From assembly GCA_021372295.1 (NCBI GenBank), contig JAJFUS010000035.1, forward strand, positions 1 to 64,000: DNA of 64,000 nucleotides, given 5' to 3'. The stretch is from a bacterium. GTDB taxonomy: Bacteria > Armatimonadota > UBA5829. The notes beneath the pieces are model-generated. The model made no database searches. It saw only the letters and a program-made list of their open reading frames with translations, and was not told where the DNA came from. Position numbers and translations under genes: made by a program. Shown in pieces: positions 11,595 through 34,954 of the stretch; the first letter of the stretch is position 1, and each line of letters begins with the position of its first letter.

Positions 11595-11622
11595 TTTTCC
11601 ATCAATCGAGGTGTAATAAAAT

Positions 11623-11970
11623 GCGCGAGCGAGTCTGTAAGCCGGGTTTTGTCTAGTGTGATCATCTATCTAAGCACACGCATTGCTGCGCGGCTTTAGC
11701 GGCGATACCCGGGAGGTCTGCGGGCAGCATCTACCCTCCCCTATTCGGCCTTGCTCCAGGTGGGGTTTACCAAGCCTCCGCCTCACGACGGAGCTGGTGG
11801 TCTCTTACACCACCGTTTCAGCTTTCCCGGCAAGCCGGGGTTTTCTTTTCTGTGGCACTTTCCTTATCCCTGCGCGTGGGACAGTTGCCGCTGGCAACCA
11901 CCTTGCCCTGTGGAGCCCGGACTTTCCTCCCCGACCTTTATGGTCGAAGCGATCACCCGACTCGCTCACG
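11623..11970 (-). ncRNA. rnpB: RNase P RNA (type A-like)
   Basis: On the minus strand the 5' part has the universally conserved GAGGAAAGTCCGGGCTCC (about 11919-11936). The 3' part has AGACAAAACCCGGCTTACAG (about 11636-11655). ACAGAAA and GGTAAACCCC blocks lie between. The ends pair: GTGAGCGAGTC (11959-11969) with GACTCGCTCGCGC (11623-11635), giving helix P1 and setting the boundaries. About 348 nt, a normal length. It is the catalytic RNA that matures tRNA 5' ends. It fills the otherwise gene-free gap between mutS2 and the HEAT-repeat gene on the same strand. Confidence 0.96.
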
Positions 11971-28639: not shown

Positions 28640-30724
28640 ATGAAACTATCTACAAATTGGCTTAAAGAATATATTGACATAAACTGTCCGCTGGACGAGC
28701 TGGCGCAGCGGCTCACGATGGCCGGGCTTGAAGTCGAAGAGACCATCCCAATAAGCAAAGAGGCTTTCGCGAAGGCGGGCGGCAGCGGCACGACCGATGA
28801 CGTGGTCTGGGATGTAAAAGTCACACCTAACCGTGGAGACTGGCTGTCGGTGTTGGGCGCGGCCAGAGAGTGCGCGCCTCTTGTGGGCGGCAAGGCGAAA
28901 ACTCCGAACGTTGAAATAGGTGGCTGCGATCCGTCGACAGCCGAATCGATTAAAATTCGCATCGACGACCCGGATCTGTGCAAGCGATATGTCGGCGTGG
29001 TGGTCAGAAACGTGAAAGTGGCCGAGTCGCCGGGCTGGCTCAAAGATCGACTGATAGCATCGGGCATGCGCCCGATAAATAACATTGTGGATGTGACCAA
29101 CTTCGTAATGATGGAGTTGGGCCAACCGCTGCATGCGTTCGACTATAAATTGCTGCATGGCTCGCAGATAATTGTCCGGCGCGCAAAGCCCGGAGAGACC
29201 ATGGCCACACTCGACGGCGAAGAGCGCAAACTCGAAAATGATATGCTTGTTATCGCCGATGCTGACCGTCCGGTGGCACTTGCGGGCGTAATGGGAGGAT
29301 TATATTCAGAAATTAGCGAGCAGACGCAGGAAATTTTAATAGAGTCGGCTAACTTTAACTCAGTAAGCATTCGGCGCACTTCAAAGCGCCTGGGGTTGGT
29401 AACAGAATCTTCATATAGATACGAGCGCACAGTCGATCCCTCGATTGCTCCGGTGGCGGCAATGAGAGCTGCGCAATTGATCAGCGAGTTGGCCGGTGGA
29501 GAAATCGCGAGGGGACTGGTAGACGAGTATCCGGTTCCAGTGGAGCCTCTGGAGTTGAAAGTGCGCCCGGAGCGCGTAAATGCGATTCTGGGCACGGCTA
29601 TCGATACTGAATCGATGGCAAAGTACCTTGACAGTCTTGAGATCGAGACCTCGGTGGTGGATGGCCTGTTGGCGTGCAGAATCCCTACGTTCAGATCGGA
29701 CATAACCCGCGAGATTGAAGTTGTCGAGGAGGTCGGTCGGGCCTACGGCTACGAGAATTTCGCGATGACTCTGCCAAAATCGTCTCTTCAGGGCAAAGAT
29801 AGTCCCGAGGGACAGCTTCGAGATAGGATTCGCCGGTCTCTAATGATGTGCGGTTGCCAGGAAGCGCTCACGCACAGCCTGGTCGACAGCAAGTTGGCCG
29901 ACATGACGGACACATCGGACATCTGCGTTAAGGTTCGCAATCCGCTCAGCGAAGAGCTTGATGGCATGCGGACGATGCTGGCTCCGAACCTGCTGCAAGT
30001 CATCGGGAGAAACCAGTCTTACGGGATGAACGATGTCTCGGTGTTCGAGGTAGGGAAAGTCTACTTCCAGAACTCCGATGGCGTGCCGGGAGAAAGGCTC
30101 GCGGTGGCGGGAGCGCTGGTCGGGAATATGTGGCGCAGCGGTTGGAGCCTGCCCGAAGAGGCTTTGCAGGTCGATTTCTTTACTTGCAAGGCGGTAGTCG
30201 AGAACTTGCTGGACGCTTTGGGAATCAAAGGCGCAACTTATACGGCAGGGCAGCATCCGTTGATGCATGCGACTCGCACGGCGAAAGTTTTTGTTGGTGA
30301 CAAAGAGGTCGGCATTTTGGGAGAAACGGCTCCAAGTGTAAGGGGCTTGCTCGACCTAAGAGGGAGACCTTGCGTTTTCGAGCTTGATTTTCAGGCTTTG
30401 ATGGCGCTTGCTCCTGAAGTAATAAAATACAAGGAGCCGGGCCGGTATCCGGCGCTGCACCGACATATAGCGGTGGTGGTATCCGATTCTGTAGAGTATG
30501 CTCGACTTGATGCCCTCGTGCGCGAGGCGGGCGGAGAACTTGTCGAAGACGTCAATCTGCTGGACATATACAAAGGCGAGCAGGTAGGAGATGGACGTCG
30601 CAGTGTGACTATATCGGTCGTGTTTCGGTCTAGGGAGAAGACCCTCACGGACGATGAAGTAAATTTTGTTCTGGCCAACATCAAAGAAGTATTGAAATCG
30701 AAATTGGAAGCGTCTTTCCGATAA
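28640..30724 (+). CDS. pheT: phenylalanyl-tRNA synthetase beta subunit lacking the EMAPII-like tRNA-binding domain
   Basis: 694 residues, about 100 fewer than E. coli PheT. The N-terminal MKLSTNWLKEYIDINCPLDE is followed by MAGLEVEE, a short Gly-rich linker, and then VTPNRGDWLSVLGAARE. The OB-fold tRNA-binding insertion that normally sits between these blocks is absent. B3/B4 editing domain (RPINNIVDVTNFVMMELGQPLHAFD), B5, the degenerate catalytic core and the C-terminal ferredoxin-like anticodon-binding domain (YPALHRHIAVVVSDSVEYARL, GRRSVTISVVFRSREKTLTDDEV) are intact. The ATG at 28640 follows GTGAGGAC. Expected to be functional with PheS. Confidence 0.95.
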   Translation: MKLSTNWLKEYIDINCPLDELAQRLTMAGLEVEETIPISKEAFAKAGGSGTTDDVVWDVKVTPNRGDWLSVLGAARECAPLVGGKAKTPNVEIGGCDPSTAESIKIRIDDPDLCKRYVGVVVRNVKVAESPGWLKDRLIASGMRPINNIVDVTNFVMMELGQPLHAFDYKLLHGSQIIVRRAKPGETMATLDGEERKLENDMLVIADADRPVALAGVMGGLYSEISEQTQEILIESANFNSVSIRRTSKRLGLVTESSYRYERTVDPSIAPVAAMRAAQLISELAGGEIARGLVDEYPVPVEPLELKVRPERVNAILGTAIDTESMAKYLDSLEIETSVVDGLLACRIPTFRSDITREIEVVEEVGRAYGYENFAMTLPKSSLQGKDSPEGQLRDRIRRSLMMCGCQEALTHSLVDSKLADMTDTSDICVKVRNPLSEELDGMRTMLAPNLLQVIGRNQSYGMNDVSVFEVGKVYFQNSDGVPGERLAVAGALVGNMWRSGWSLPEEALQVDFFTCKAVVENLLDALGIKGATYTAGQHPLMHATRTAKVFVGDKEVGILGETAPSVRGLLDLRGRPCVFELDFQALMALAPEVIKYKEPGRYPALHRHIAVVVSDSVEYARLDALVREAGGELVEDVNLLDIYKGEQVGDGRRSVTISVVFRSREKTLTDDEVNFVLANIKEVLKSKLEASFR

Positions 30725-30793
30725 CCCGAAGAGGTTAGGATCGTAATATTCCCAAAAAGAGATAGAGGAAAATCAAGGAAGGAGGCCGGCAAA

Positions 30794-31438
30794 ATGGTAG
30801 TTGAAAGACAAGCCAATGTCAGCGACATTGAGTCTATCATATGCAGGCTCAGAGACGTAATTGCAGTGAGCGTGGTAACGGATGCCCTGGGAGATATATC
30901 GGAAGTCCACGTGCTCACAAGTTCAGAAAGACCCCCTAAACAAGTTGTAAGAGACGTGGAGTCCGCAGTTATGGCCCGATTGGGTATAGCTTTGGACCAC
31001 AAAAAGATCAGTATCGCCCAGGTGGCGGACGGATCACCTCGTTTCGATCACTCCAGACTGAAGTTTGCTGATGTATCCATTTCCCTCAATGGAAGTAGAA
31101 CCGAAGCCACGGTTCGCATGACCAAGGACGGCATAATGTGCTCCGGTTCGGCAAGCGGAACAGGCTCGCCCAGCGGGCAAATGAAACTTATCGCAGGGGC
31201 AACACTTCGCGCAGTAGAAGATTCCGAGCTGACAACCGACAGCTTCGTGCTGGAGGACGTTGCGGAAACGCTCATTGGTGGTCGAAAGGCCGCCGTCGTG
31301 CTTGTAAATGTAATTACCAACCGCGGCGAAGATTTGTTGACCGGATGCGCTCTCATAAAGCAGGATGTTTGGAAGGGCGTGGTGAATGCTACACTGGATG
31401 CAATCAACCGCAGACTGTGCGCATCATCAGATAGATAA
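30794..31438 (+). CDS. uncharacterised conserved-looking protein next to the HD-GYP locus
   Basis: 214 residues, ATG at 30794 with AAGGAAGGAGG upstream. No signal peptide or membrane segment. The N-terminal half (IAVSVVTDALGDISEVHVLTSSERPPKQVVRDVESAVMARLG in two parts, then LDHKKISIAQV) alternates beta strand and helix like a small regulatory fold. The second half holds VSISLNGSRTEATVRMT, a Gly/Ser-rich loop CSGSASGTGSPSGQM, and AAVVLVNVITNRGEDLLTGCALI. I do not recognise a named function. It precedes the peptide and HD-GYP genes on the same strand with no terminator in between, so it may belong to the same unit. Confidence 0.75.
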   Translation: MVVERQANVSDIESIICRLRDVIAVSVVTDALGDISEVHVLTSSERPPKQVVRDVESAVMARLGIALDHKKISIAQVADGSPRFDHSRLKFADVSISLNGSRTEATVRMTKDGIMCSGSASGTGSPSGQMKLIAGATLRAVEDSELTTDSFVLEDVAETLIGGRKAAVVLVNVITNRGEDLLTGCALIKQDVWKGVVNATLDAINRRLCASSDR

Positions 31439-31461
31439 GTCAAGTTAAAAGTATTGCATTT

Positions 31462-31732
31462 TGAGCCAACGGTTAAAGCGAAAGGCAGTGAGCGAGAAAG
31501 TCAACCCGAGCGAAGCGGTTTTATGGCGGCCTGTTAAGCGATACGGGCTAGCACTAAACCGAAAGGGGTTGAATAGCATGAGTCGCTTATTCAAGGTTCT
31601 GCTTGGTCTGGCTGCTCTGGCCATGACAGCGGGCGCACCGTGGGGCATTATGCCAACATTGCCGCCCAAACCGTAGACTAGGCTTATGGCAGGTGAGAAT
31701 ACATACTGCTGTTTTTGCCAACCGTTGGCTCA
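31462..31732 (+). repeat. 13-base complementary arms enclosing the small peptide gene
   Basis: TGAGCCAACGGTT (31462-31474) is the exact reverse complement of AACCGTTGGCTCA (31720-31732). The 245 bases between contain further stems: GGCCTGT/ACGGGCT around 31528-31549, and AACC-GAAA-GGGGTT (31557-31570), which holds the peptide's ribosome site, flanked by GCTA/TAGC. The transcript could fold as one domain closed by the long arms. Alternatively it is a small mobile palindromic unit. Confidence 0.6.
31578..31676 (+). CDS. 32-residue hydrophobic peptide, weakly AgrD-like
   Basis: ATG at 31578 with AAAGGGG about 10 bases upstream. The peptide has a basic N-terminus (MSRLFK), a hydrophobic helix (about 7-17), then a turn-rich tail APWGIMPTLPPKP. 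The layout of amphipathic leader, aromatic/Gly turn and Pro-Lys C-terminus resembles cyclic-lactone autoinducer precursors (AgrD type), but the cyclising Cys or Ser is missing and no AgrB protease is nearby. It sits directly upstream of two membrane HD-GYP genes. It might be a secreted signal, a membrane micro-peptide, or a leader peptide. In-frame codons continue upstream to a TTG at 31461, a less likely start. Confidence 0.5.
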   Translation: MSRLFKVLLGLAALAMTAGAPWGIMPTLPPKP

Positions 31733-31762
31733 TTCAAAGTTGCAATATCCCTGGTACCTCCC

Positions 31763-33331
31763 ATGAATTATAGGCTAAAGTCATACATTGTCCTGTGTGT
31801 GGCATCATTTTTGTGTGCTGCAGGCGTGACGCTCTTCGTTTGGCAACAAGTGCCTGCGTCAGCAAGTATCTGGCTGGAAGTCAAATGGTTTATCCTGATA
31901 GCTCTTCCGGCCGAGTTAATGGCAGTGTACGTTGATCGGGAGGGTGGATGCTTCATCTCTCCGGCTTATGCCATATACTGGGCTGCCGCCTGCGTTTTAG
32001 GACCAATGCCTGCAATTGTGTGCGTTGCTGTGACAGGTTCTCTGGCGACAGTTATCAGGTTTGTATCATTTTTGATCCTAAGACGTATAGACTCGGCTCT
32101 TAAATCTGATACCGTATCTGTTAATAATGGAACAACCGGACGATGCTTTGCTGCGCTGTCTGGATGGTTCACAAACCAGATGCGTATTGCAGCCAGTGTG
32201 TGGCCACCGCATACATCTGACTGGACTGTGGTTTTTATTCTCCTGCAGTGTATCAGCGGTCTGGTTTTGTTTGTGGGCCCAGCGGGGCTTGCGTATCATT
32301 ATGTCGGTGGCAATTATCTTCTATCGCCCAGCCCTCATTTTAATGTCCTGACCAACTTCGTTCTGCCGTTTATAGCGCTCGTAACAGTTTCCATATTGAT
32401 GGACTTGTTGGGCATTATTGTGGCGTTAACTGTGATAACCATATCCGAAAATGCGTCAATTCGCGAAGTAATCTTAAAGGCCAGGCTCTCCGCTGTGGAA
32501 ATGTTTCTGCCTTTGGTAAAGCCCCAGTTGTTCTCAGTGGTGGTGGGGATATCTTTGGCTTATCTATATGCCCAACTGCATCTTCTCGGATTCGCTATTG
32601 CGGTGGCGCCGGTGATCGCGCTCAGAGACTTCTTTAATCAGTGGGTGGCCGAGCGAGACGCTTATGTGGACACCATCACCACCCTTGCGACTTACATGCA
32701 GCATTATCATCCATATACAAGGGGGCATCTTAAGCGGGTTGCGGACATGTCCGAACGGCTGGCGCGCGAGTTGAGACTGCCGGTGGAAAGCATCAGGTTC
32801 ATCGGCACCGCCGGGCTGCTGCATGATATAGGCAAAATCGGTGTAAGCGAGGAAATTCTGGACAAAACAAGCAAACTCAGCGACGAAGAATGGGCAAAAA
32901 TCAGAGAACACCCCGTTAAGGGAGCAGAAATCATCAGCCATCTCGAATTCCTGGAAGGTATCGTGGACTGGATCAGATACCACCACAAGTGGTACGATGG
33001 CAGCGGTTACCCGGACACAAAAGGCAATGCAACCATTCCTATGGAAGCGCTGATTATTGCGACAGTCGACGCATTTGACGCGATGACCGACGACCGTGAA
33101 CTGACGCTGGGATGGAAGTGCGACTCGTGCGGATACGTGCCCGAAGGAGACTCGCGTCCCGAGTTCTGCCCGATCTGCGGCGCCGAAAAACGCAGGCGCT
33201 ACAGAGAACCAAAAAGCCTCGATGAAGCGATAGACGAGTTGAGACGCGGCGCCGGAAGTCAATTCCACCCGATGGTGGTAAAGGCGTTTCTTACCATGAT
33301 CGAACGCGACGGAGTGCATGCAAATGTCTAA
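31763..33331 (+). CDS. membrane HD-GYP phosphodiesterase with inserted four-Cys ribbon
   Basis: 522 residues from ATG 31763; the upstream in-frame TTG at 31715 lies in the palindromic arm region and no good ribosome site supports it. Residues 1-290 are mostly membrane (about 8 helices) and look like a sensor domain. The HD-GYP domain has HD at 354-355 (LLHDIGKIG) and GYP at 415-417 (HHKWYDGSGYP), so it is probably an active cyclic-di-GMP phosphodiesterase. After VDAFDAMTDDRE there is an insertion with CDSCGY and FCPICGA (C453, C456, C469, C472), a rubredoxin/zinc-ribbon-like knuckle not part of normal HD-GYP domains. It overlaps the next gene by 8 bases. Confidence 0.88.
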   Translation: MNYRLKSYIVLCVASFLCAAGVTLFVWQQVPASASIWLEVKWFILIALPAELMAVYVDREGGCFISPAYAIYWAAACVLGPMPAIVCVAVTGSLATVIRFVSFLILRRIDSALKSDTVSVNNGTTGRCFAALSGWFTNQMRIAASVWPPHTSDWTVVFILLQCISGLVLFVGPAGLAYHYVGGNYLLSPSPHFNVLTNFVLPFIALVTVSILMDLLGIIVALTVITISENASIREVILKARLSAVEMFLPLVKPQLFSVVVGISLAYLYAQLHLLGFAIAVAPVIALRDFFNQWVAERDAYVDTITTLATYMQHYHPYTRGHLKRVADMSERLARELRLPVESIRFIGTAGLLHDIGKIGVSEEILDKTSKLSDEEWAKIREHPVKGAEIISHLEFLEGIVDWIRYHHKWYDGSGYPDTKGNATIPMEALIIATVDAFDAMTDDRELTLGWKCDSCGYVPEGDSRPEFCPICGAEKRRRYREPKSLDEAIDELRRGAGSQFHPMVVKAFLTMIERDGVHANV

Positions 33332-34010
33332 TATAAACCTTACTCCCGGCGTGTTGTTTTTCGTATTCATATCACTGAGCATATCCGTAATGAGCCTGTA
33401 TGTGTCGAGGCGCTATCTGCCTACCAAGATGAAAAGCGCCTATCTCAAGTCCATCACCGCTCTTGCGGCAGCCGTGGAGACAAAAGACTCCGGCACTGTA
33501 GGACATGCTCAGCGCGTGGCTCAGCTAGCGGTGGCGGTCGCGCGCAGGCTCGACCTGCAAGGTCATATACTGGAAAGAATCGAATATGCGGCTCTCCTGA
33601 TGGACATCGGCAAAGCGAATGTTCCGCAGGCTATCCTGAACAAGAAGAATCCTTTAACTGAGGCTGAGTGGATGATGATCCAGAGTCACTCCGGGCTTGG
33701 ATCGGAAATGGTAGCCGCGGTGCCCTTTCTTGCCGATTTGCAGGGATATATTCTTCATCACCACGAGTACTGGGACGGCAGCGGTTACCCTGAGGGATTG
33801 CAGGGCGAAGACATACCTCTGCCGAGCAGAATTCTGGCTGTTGCGGCAGACTACGACGCAATGATTTCCCAAAGGCCATATCATCCGCACCCGATGACGC
33901 ATACCGAGGCTATAAATGAGATAAAACGTTATTTGGGCACGAAATACGACCCGAATGTCGGCAAGGCGTTTGTCGAGATGATGTCGGAAAGCTCGATGAT
34001 GGACAAATGA
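33324..34010 (+). CDS. membrane-anchored degenerate HD-GYP protein
   Basis: 228 residues from ATG 33324 (GGAG 9 bases upstream), overlapping the end of the preceding HD-GYP gene. One TM helix (about 8-28) is followed by the HD-GYP domain. The HD dyad is changed to MD (AALLMDIGKANVP, M93-D94), while HHHEYWDGSGYP and the preceding GHAQRV are kept. Loss of the His that ligates the catalytic metals predicts weak or no phosphodiesterase activity, so it may be a nucleotide-binding or heterodimer partner of the upstream enzyme. The stop codon overlaps the hemC start (ATGA). Confidence 0.87.
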   Translation: MSNINLTPGVLFFVFISLSISVMSLYVSRRYLPTKMKSAYLKSITALAAAVETKDSGTVGHAQRVAQLAVAVARRLDLQGHILERIEYAALLMDIGKANVPQAILNKKNPLTEAEWMMIQSHSGLGSEMVAAVPFLADLQGYILHHHEYWDGSGYPEGLQGEDIPLPSRILAVAADYDAMISQRPYHPHPMTHTEAINEIKRYLGTKYDPNVGKAFVEMMSESSMMDK

Positions 34011-34954
34011 TGGCAGAGCTGGTCATTGGATCACGAGGAAGCGAACTGGCGCTGTGGCAGGCGCGATGGGTTGTTAGTCGGATCATTGAAACGAACCCGG
34101 GTATGAGTTGTCGCATCGAGATTATCACGACAACCGGCGACCGTCAAACGGACGCCCCACTCGCGAAGATCGGCGACAAGGGACTGTTCGTGAAGGAGAT
34201 CGAGCTTGCTCTGCTGAACGGACAGATAGACGTTGCGGTTCACAGCGCAAAGGACTTGCCCTCGGAGATGGACGGCAGCCTGTATATAGCCGCCTTTCCA
34301 AAACGGGAAGACCCCCGCGACGCGCTTGTATCCAAGGCGGGCAAATTGAACGAATTGCCGAAGGAAGCCGTCATAGGCACGAGCAGCGTGAGGCGTCGGG
34401 CGCAGATCATGGCCGTTCGTCCCGATGTGAAAATTGTCGATCTGCGGGGTAATCTCGATACCCGGCTGCGCAAGTTGTGCGGTTCGGAATACGACGCGAT
34501 CATTCTCGCCTGCGCGGGACTTCGCCGCATGAGCCTTGAATGCCGGATTACTGAGGCGCTACCGATTGAGGTATCGCTTCCCGCAGCGGGACAGGGCGCG
34601 CTCGCGGTGCAGTGTCGCCGAGGCGATCCGGCAGCCGATATTGTGTCGAACCTGGACGATGCCCTGACACGTCGATGCGTGAGCGCAGAACGCGCTGTGC
34701 TCGCGGCGCTGGGAGCTGGATGTCAAACTCCGGTTGGGGCGCATGCGCGGGAAATTGACGGGCGGCTTGTGCTCGACGCGTTGGTCGCCGGTTTGGACGG
34801 CTCGCGGATTGTGCGAAAAAGTATCAGCGGCGAGCTCGATGAGTGGAACGATCTGGGCATACGTCTGGCCGGGAGCCTGCTCGAATCGGGCGCGAGAGAT
34901 CTGCTGGAAGATGCAAGGCGCAGTGAGGCGTCTGGAAATATTGGAGCGGCTTGA
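34007..34954 (+). CDS. hemC: hydroxymethylbilane synthase (porphobilinogen deaminase)
   Basis: 315 residues. GSRGSELALWQARWV, TTGDRQTDAPLAKIGDKGLFVKE (in two parts), VHSAKDLPSEM and GTSSVRRRAQ are the catalytic blocks. C239 in LGAGCQTPVGAHA carries the dipyrromethane cofactor. It polymerises four porphobilinogens into hydroxymethylbilane in the cytoplasm. The start at 34007 overlaps the HD-GYP stop; a second ATG at 34010 is out of frame with nothing gained. Its product is used by the HemD half of the protein at 36586. Confidence 0.96.
   Translation: MMAELVIGSRGSELALWQARWVVSRIIETNPGMSCRIEIITTTGDRQTDAPLAKIGDKGLFVKEIELALLNGQIDVAVHSAKDLPSEMDGSLYIAAFPKREDPRDALVSKAGKLNELPKEAVIGTSSVRRRAQIMAVRPDVKIVDLRGNLDTRLRKLCGSEYDAIILACAGLRRMSLECRITEALPIEVSLPAAGQGALAVQCRRGDPAADIVSNLDDALTRRCVSAERAVLAALGAGCQTPVGAHAREIDGRLVLDALVAGLDGSRIVRKSISGELDEWNDLGIRLAGSLLESGARDLLEDARRSEASGNIGAA

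Follow-up and report, generated by a model that had tools for sequence, protein, structure and literature searches.

The window analysed here, a 64,000-nucleotide stretch of an Armatimonadota metagenome-assembled genome (2.65 Mb in 56 contigs; handle G000), contains a 32-residue frame (MSRLFKVLLGLAALAMTAGAPWGIMPTLPPKP; 31578-31676, + strand, ATG start) within a predicted structured RNA element of ~270 bases (31462-31732, + strand). Upstream of this element lies lua (30794-31438, + strand, with its start at 30770 or 30794), the gene of a LeuA-dimer-like protein. Downstream lie HD1 (+ strand, from the ATG at 31763 to the end of the stop codon at 33331), encoding a membrane HD-GYP protein with intact motifs, and HD2 (33318-34010, + strand), which overlaps HD1 by 14 bases and encodes a one-helix HD-GYP protein with MD in place of the HD dyad. 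The gene order of the region is pheT, lua, the 32-residue frame, HD1, HD2, porphobilinogen deaminase, a flavoprotein and a tetrapyrrole methylase-HemD fusion. A first-pass annotation of this DNA had proposed that the small peptide and the two HD-GYP proteins form a signalling module. Its coordinates, the HD1/HD2 overlap and the motifs it reported are correct, the structured RNA around the frame was overlooked, and its interpretation is partly supported by our comparisons, which used samples of 201 Armatimonadota genomes for the phylum and 28 genomes for the class (handles G###).

For the class comparison, the gaps between lua and HD1 were extracted from relatives. In all 16 compared class loci with lua, the gap holds a similarly patterned frame of 28-32 codons, and G027 and G005 also carry one, giving 18/18 class genomes with full lua; the loss of the frame from orthologous loci, which the first-pass annotation had named as the outcome that would count against it, was not seen. 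In the window, the Shine-Dalgarno sequence AAAGGGG (31562-31568, + strand) stands ahead of the ATG, and the GTG start of G016 and the TTG start of G018 have the same spacing to the Shine-Dalgarno sequence as the ATG of the other genomes. The ratio of nonsynonymous to synonymous differences (pN/pS) over codons 2-24 was 0.21 (seven genomes), 0.40 (four) and 0.27 (three), compared with 0.91-4.3 for the two alternative frames of the same DNA; these groups account for 14 of the 18 peptide-bearing class genomes (G005, G019, G021 and G027 were left out), and the distances are uncorrected for saturation. Because of this low pN/pS relative to the other frames and the single match per genome that a peptide profile gives in 40/201 genomes, the frame is beyond chance. 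These data indicate that the frame is under protein-level selection. A fortuitous frame, in DNA conserved purely as DNA or RNA, is barely conceivable in view of the pN/pS contrast with the other frames, the fixed start, Shine-Dalgarno sequence and stop, and the register kept across families. The frame is almost certainly a real, conserved microprotein gene.

Alignment of 34 peptides (18 from the class and 16 from other classes) was nearly gap-free from Met1 to Pro26, followed by variable tails of 0-16 residues, which indicates that this register is nearly fixed across families. The peptides, 25-41 residues in total length, share a layout of a basic start, a hydrophobic stretch, Gly19-Ala20, an aromatic residue at position 25 before Pro26, and the variable tail. 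Pro26 is present in 34/34 sequences, and Gly19 and Ala20 in 32/34 each; position 25 is aromatic in 31/34 (Trp in 24/34) and is Met in the window peptide. These include the residues (Trp, Gly and Pro) whose conservation had been put forward as a check on the peptide. The best 15-residue hydropathy is at least 1.49 in 33/34 peptides, and the net charge of the start is at least +1 in 33/34. The first-pass annotation had also noted a weak likeness to AgrD precursors together with the lack of Cys and of AgrB. The latter two observations hold, the window peptide having no Cys and the whole genome no AgrB match, and the likeness fails on the same grounds, Cys18 being present in just 6/16 class peptides. 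The identity of the peptide as an AgrD precursor was rejected.

Beyond the class, a strong lua match (E below 1e-20) was found in 44/201 phylum genomes and a weak match in 4 more. Among 20 lua loci from other classes, 16 have clear peptide frames at the matching place, including MGKWTSALLALLSLILAGGARLAWP, MARLYKLIAAALGFLLLGGAQSVFWPR and MKYWLTMLLLLVVWATTYGAKLEIYPPPKPPPPPSATY, two have weak candidates (G075 and G137) and two (G127 and G153) have none; the weak candidates, which have neither the AGCG-loop hairpin described below nor a profile match, were kept out of the profile. The profile built from the 34 peptides gave a single match in each of 40/201 genomes, namely the 34 used in building it and six new ones (G048, G057, G077, G086, G093 and G106). 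By comparison of the places by eye, each of the 40 matches shares a contig with lua and is no more than 300 nt from it; in G057, the adjoining lua is a fragment at the end of a contig. The peptide is therefore present in 40/44 strong-lua genomes versus 0/157 others, where the samples used for the lua and peptide counts are taken as identical since their handles agree, and where the counts include related genomes, which are not independent cases. The lua protein itself scores 20.4 bits against PF08502 (LeuA_dimer), below the family cut-off of 24.9. It is a standalone LeuA-dimer-like protein, for which 332 relatives were found; among the 120 listed, they are called "hypothetical protein" wherever named.

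HD1 is directly next to the peptide in 29/34 inspected loci (17/18 in the class and 12/16 in other classes, with the HD1 of G108 assigned from its first 267 residues, which are 79% identical to the HD1 of G034), and a contig edge ends the locus in four further cases (G005, G066, G061 and G102). In G080 (L144), a DUF5317 gene follows the microprotein at the usual place of HD1. The peptide follows lua more strictly than it follows HD1. The first-pass annotation had placed the peptide before a membrane HD-GYP gene and suggested testing their co-occurrence. The order is indeed constant, and HD1 is usually the next gene, but lua, which was not mentioned there, is tracked more strictly, and exceptions to the peptide-HD1 pairing exist on both sides. 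Because HD1 exists without the peptide, and in one case the peptide without HD1, the HD-GYP partnership of the peptide, as read from these sequences, is plausible only.

The phenylalanyl-tRNA synthetase beta chain gene (pheT; 28640-30724 in the window) stands before lua in those class loci with enough upstream sequence, and likewise in G040, G053 and G066. No pheT match was found in the 1.7-2.3 kb upstream of lua in G044, G030, G068, G100, G190, G071, G124, G108 and G080, which belong to other families. Since the unit stands away from pheT in these nine loci, it is no mere passenger of pheT. Porphobilinogen deaminase (hemC; 34007-34954) follows HD2 in the window, and the flavoprotein after it is one that we take to be NadB. 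A linkage of the unit with hemC was rejected, as no hemC match was found in the loci of 20 relatives.

The DNA before the frame is conserved beyond the level of a spacer, in the segments TTTGAGCCAACGG and CAACCCGAGCGAAGCGG, an AGCG-loop hairpin and CGAAAGGGGTTGA, and the reverse complement of the first upstream segment reappears after the stop codon, which implies a helix, P1, closing around the whole frame. Its 5' arm (31462-31474, + strand) pairs with its 3' arm (31720-31732, + strand). With arms picked by eye, 92.3% of the P1 cells were paired compared with a shuffled mean of 79.8% (0/500 as high), and slid versions reached at most 42.3%; the test used 14 typed constructs, 13 of them distinct, covering 17 genomes, and the row of G019 was misplaced by the aligner. 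Compensatory changes on both sides occur in 12 of the 13 P1 pairs within the class. An unguided search for ungapped helices gave results beating at least 191/200 shuffles in 15/16 class genomes. When whole elements were cut at P1, a choice of ends that favours this helix, 9-13 P1 pairs formed in 16/16 folds; duplex energies over long flanks were too diffuse to reveal P1. These comparisons indicate that a long-range helix with compensatory changes encloses the frame in the class.

Inside P1, the 5' domain is predicted to consist of three further helices (coordinates on the + strand). In P3, the strand TCAACCC (31501-31507) would pair with GGGTTGA (31566-31572). P3 is followed by the internal loop GAGCGRAG (31508-31515), which is invariant except for one A/G position in 16 aligned class sequences, then by P4 (31516-31521 with 31556-31561) and by the P5 hairpin (31528-31549), whose AGCG loop is at 31537-31540. 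P3 and P4 are folding predictions. For P5, 97.4% of cells were paired compared with a shuffled mean of 69.9% (0/2000 shuffles; 17 genomes, 13 distinct rows), and double changes were found in 23 cells versus 5.6 in shuffles; all 6 of its pairs show a double change, which 80/2000 shuffles matched. The GAGCGRAG and AGCG loops precede the ribosome-binding site, and in the class the predicted P3 would take part of that site, the Shine-Dalgarno sequence lying partly within it. Up to five copies of the motif AGCG(A/G) are found in the 5' part (31475-31542 and relatives), several of them in predicted loops, a pattern reminiscent of a repeated protein-binding site. Taken together, we have very little doubt that a real structured element exists in the class.

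A folded message of this kind could also be the working molecule itself, or belong to a type I-like toxin whose mRNA folds back, with the peptide being secondary or toxic. The mRNAs of the hok or aapA type likewise pair end to end and have a buried ribosome-binding site, and the element would be similar to them in this respect. However, it exists in one copy at a fixed place beside lua in 40/40 cases, and its protein is strongly conserved phylum-wide, both of which are unusual for toxins, so that we hold this explanation to be decidedly improbable.

Outside the class, the layout recurs with different letters. An AGCG-loop hairpin of at least 6 pairs lies 37-49 nt before the start codon in 31/34 loci (16 class and 18 other loci were compared), with at most 5/200 dinucleotide shuffles as good in each of these 31; it was not found in G190, G075 and G137. 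A helix around the frame with at most 2/100 shuffles as good was found in 11/18 loci outside the class, and four genomes of one family there have 23-25-base helices around the frame. An RNA model, R1, built from 14 class sequences, detected 15/28 class genomes, only one of them new (G027). It did not detect the divergent elements of G019 and G021, which were located by place, or anything in G005, where that part of the element is deleted. R1 gave no strong match outside the class, so the family-wide RNA claim rests on the layout and the hairpin, not on R1. Matches of R1 in G086 and G124 and a second one in G003 (24-26 bits) are not near the peptide and were discounted as probably due to chance, and no peptide frame was found in the sequence examined at these off-site matches in G003 and G086.

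Searches of databases gave no counterpart of the element. At the Rfam gathering score, the sole match in the window was a bacterial RNase P class A RNA elsewhere (11622-11968, - strand), with none for the element. Over 31400-31800, a search with E up to 10 returned nothing beyond one chance-level match, and in the loci of seven relatives only two weak matches (E 0.025 and 0.77), far below the gathering scores, were obtained. A known riboswitch or other Rfam RNA was rejected, as neither the element in the window nor the relatives' loci gave an Rfam match at the gathering level. In the open-licence PMC literature, nothing describing this RNA or peptide appeared in the titles and abstract starts among the matches listed. 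No described family matching the fold plus the peptide was found in these searches.

One class locus has lost much of this arrangement. In G005 (L111), a natural deletion after lua has removed P3-P5, and the hydrophobic half of the peptide is degraded (hydropathy 1.01), while the Shine-Dalgarno sequence and the tail TWGIWPPR are kept, followed by tandem repeats.

The persistence of such a tail bears on the main rival explanation, a ribosome-arrest leader peptide, whose nascent chain would stall the ribosome at the aromatic-Pro(-Pro) or at a Pro-stop and thereby control the next gene or the RNA. Pro-Pro or a terminal Pro is present in 30/34 sequences, WPP in 12 and IWPP in 6 (G001, G005, G006, G010, G016 and G017; the G001 and G017 peptides contain WAIWPPKP and WLIWPPP), and Pro26 is invariant before a variable tail. 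A short, protein-conserved frame upstream of a gene, with HD1 next in 29/34 loci, is what a leader peptide is expected to be, and G005 keeps GIWPP as its N-terminal half decays. Moreover, a review distinguishes three classes of stalling sequence obtained by selection in E. coli, namely Pro-stop, Pro-Pro and WPP, with FXXYXIWPP as the strong motif (PMC13410324), and another paper describes WPPP alone as stalling to a degree (PMC11669330). However, the Phe position of that motif is Gly19 here, and its Tyr position is aromatic in only 14/34 peptides. Three peptides end in WPR, WPT or WPK and one in PKLPA. By geometry, a ribosome halted at codon 26 would cover none of P1-P5. The spacing between the 3' arm and HD1 is variable, and a basic-hydrophobic start is not required of leader peptides. 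We regard an arrest peptide as rather unlikely.

The putative partner, HD1, has many predicted N-terminal helices, as a membrane HD-GYP protein, and the motifs required of an HD-GYP domain, H354-D355, H407-H408 and G415-Y416-P417, are invariant across 34 aligned proteins. The HD dyad of HD2 was found in 0/19 class proteins or fragments, which have MD (5), RD (7), QD (1), AD (2), ED (1) or no motif (3). By motif, HD1 and HD2 would form an active-plus-degenerate pair, the His of the dyad being kept in HD1 and missing from HD2. Eleven PF13487 matches, HD1 and HD2 included, were found in the G000 genome. A rubredoxin-like CxxC...CxxC insert (PF21349, 36.7 bits) lies inside the HD-GYP domain of HD1 at residues 451-476 (33113-33190). 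It is found in 117/118 anchored proteins among the best 120 HD1 relatives and in the HD1 of four class families, and is missing from the HD1 of G020, G022, G026 and G027 and from the other-class HD1 proteins examined. Among the papers listed for HD-GYP and rubredoxin, none concerned such an insert by title or abstract start.

With a membrane sensor adjoining, and MASE9 above cut-off in three of four HD1 relatives from other classes, the peptide could also be an exported signal, in which residues 1-20 with a small-Gly-Ala site would be removed, after which HD1 would detect the freed 5-20 downstream residues through its membrane domain. An n-region, a hydrophobic region and small residues at positions 18-20 are present in most rows. 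However, Pro stands right after Ala20 in five class peptides, the window's included, and Pro following Ala20 should block cleavage by signal peptidase I. In addition, HD1 is not beside the peptide in G080, and no exporter or AgrB was found, the AgrB search covering the whole genome. An exported signal peptide is improbable.

The sequences compared indicate that, in some Armatimonadota, a microprotein enclosed by a predicted structured RNA is encoded between lua and the following gene, usually one for a membrane HD-GYP protein. The explanation that we prefer, to which we assign a probability of about 40%, is an RNA-gated, membrane-directed microprotein acting with HD1. If the RNA is made and folded in the cell as predicted, P3 would keep part of the ribosome-binding site paired and its opening would turn on translation, with the invariant loops providing a contact surface for a ligand or protein; on this model, the fold likely gates when the peptide is made. 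The basic-hydrophobic N-terminus may then carry the peptide into or across the membrane, where the aromatic-Pro tail would meet HD1, or lua, and the peptide would act on the adjoining HD-GYP sensor, the product of the next gene.

Several observations weigh against this explanation. On the RNA side, the arms of the P1 and P5 tests were picked by eye, which favours pairing, and the number of P1 pair types was not above that of shuffles (247/500). In the ungapped-helix search, P1 of G020 was not above chance (130/200 shuffles as good) and the top helix of G001 differs from P1, and 7/18 loci outside the class have no clear P1. The covariation term of RNAalifold for the 5' domain was just -0.34, P3 getting little covariation support because its innermost pairs hardly vary, and the 5' domain alone was not stabler than shuffles (z -1.0; 39/200 as good). 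Moreover, the pairing of the Shine-Dalgarno sequence is partial, with an unpaired fraction of 0.26-0.61 in the folds. On the peptide side, a transmembrane helix would usually be longer than the hydrophobic stretch, and the loss in G005 of P3-P5 and most of the hydrophobic stretch, with the tail kept, would favour a tail-centred role. As for the partners, G007 and G011, which belong to one genus, keep pheT-HD1-HD2 without lua, the RNA and the peptide, G080 has lua and the peptide with HD1 absent beside the peptide, and G127 and G153 have lua without the peptide.

A bolder proposal, which we consider somewhat unlikely, is that the unit represents a new class of Armatimonadota RNA gene carrying its own microprotein. 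An aptamer-like domain with AGCG loops, together with the end-to-end helix, would respond to a signal by freeing the start of a membrane-directed peptide of 25-41 residues. The aromatic-Pro-Pro tail of this peptide would be nature's equivalent of the IWPP staller selected in the laboratory and would couple its translation to a membrane enzyme of cyclic dimeric guanosine monophosphate (cyclic-di-GMP). The unit offers a clean case of an RNA structure and a peptide evolving together, being single-copy and at a fixed place in several families of one phylum. Annotations seldom include frames of fewer than 40 codons, and it is rare for a structured RNA to enclose a conserved frame. An action of the peptide on HD1 would represent control of a cyclic-di-GMP enzyme by a small protein, and ribosome stalling would make these peptides a natural family near a motif known from random libraries.

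Compared with known systems, the locus resembles cyclic-di-GMP riboswitches and other Rfam families in having a structured element next to a cyclic-di-GMP-type gene, but the element has no match to them even at E up to 10. As with the leader peptides TnaC and ErmCL, a frame of ~25 residues with Pro at or near its end lies upstream of a gene, whereas here a helix encloses the whole frame and no helix was found under the expected stall site. The small single-pass operon proteins CydX and KdpF are similar in being hydrophobic, ~30 residues long and encoded beside a membrane protein gene, but the frame described here sits inside a conserved structured RNA. The stallers selected in E. coli, FXXYXIWPP(P) and Pro-stop, share the aromatic-Pro-Pro or terminal Pro ending a short chain (PMC13410324, PMC7897499, PMC11669330); those came from random libraries, whereas the natural peptides here, in which the Phe and Tyr positions are unconserved, are putative stallers. 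Finally, HD1 is akin to MASE9 HD-GYP proteins in its HD, HH and GYP motifs and in the MASE9 matches of its other-class relatives, and the HD1 of four class families differs from them by the rubredoxin-like insert within the HD-GYP domain.

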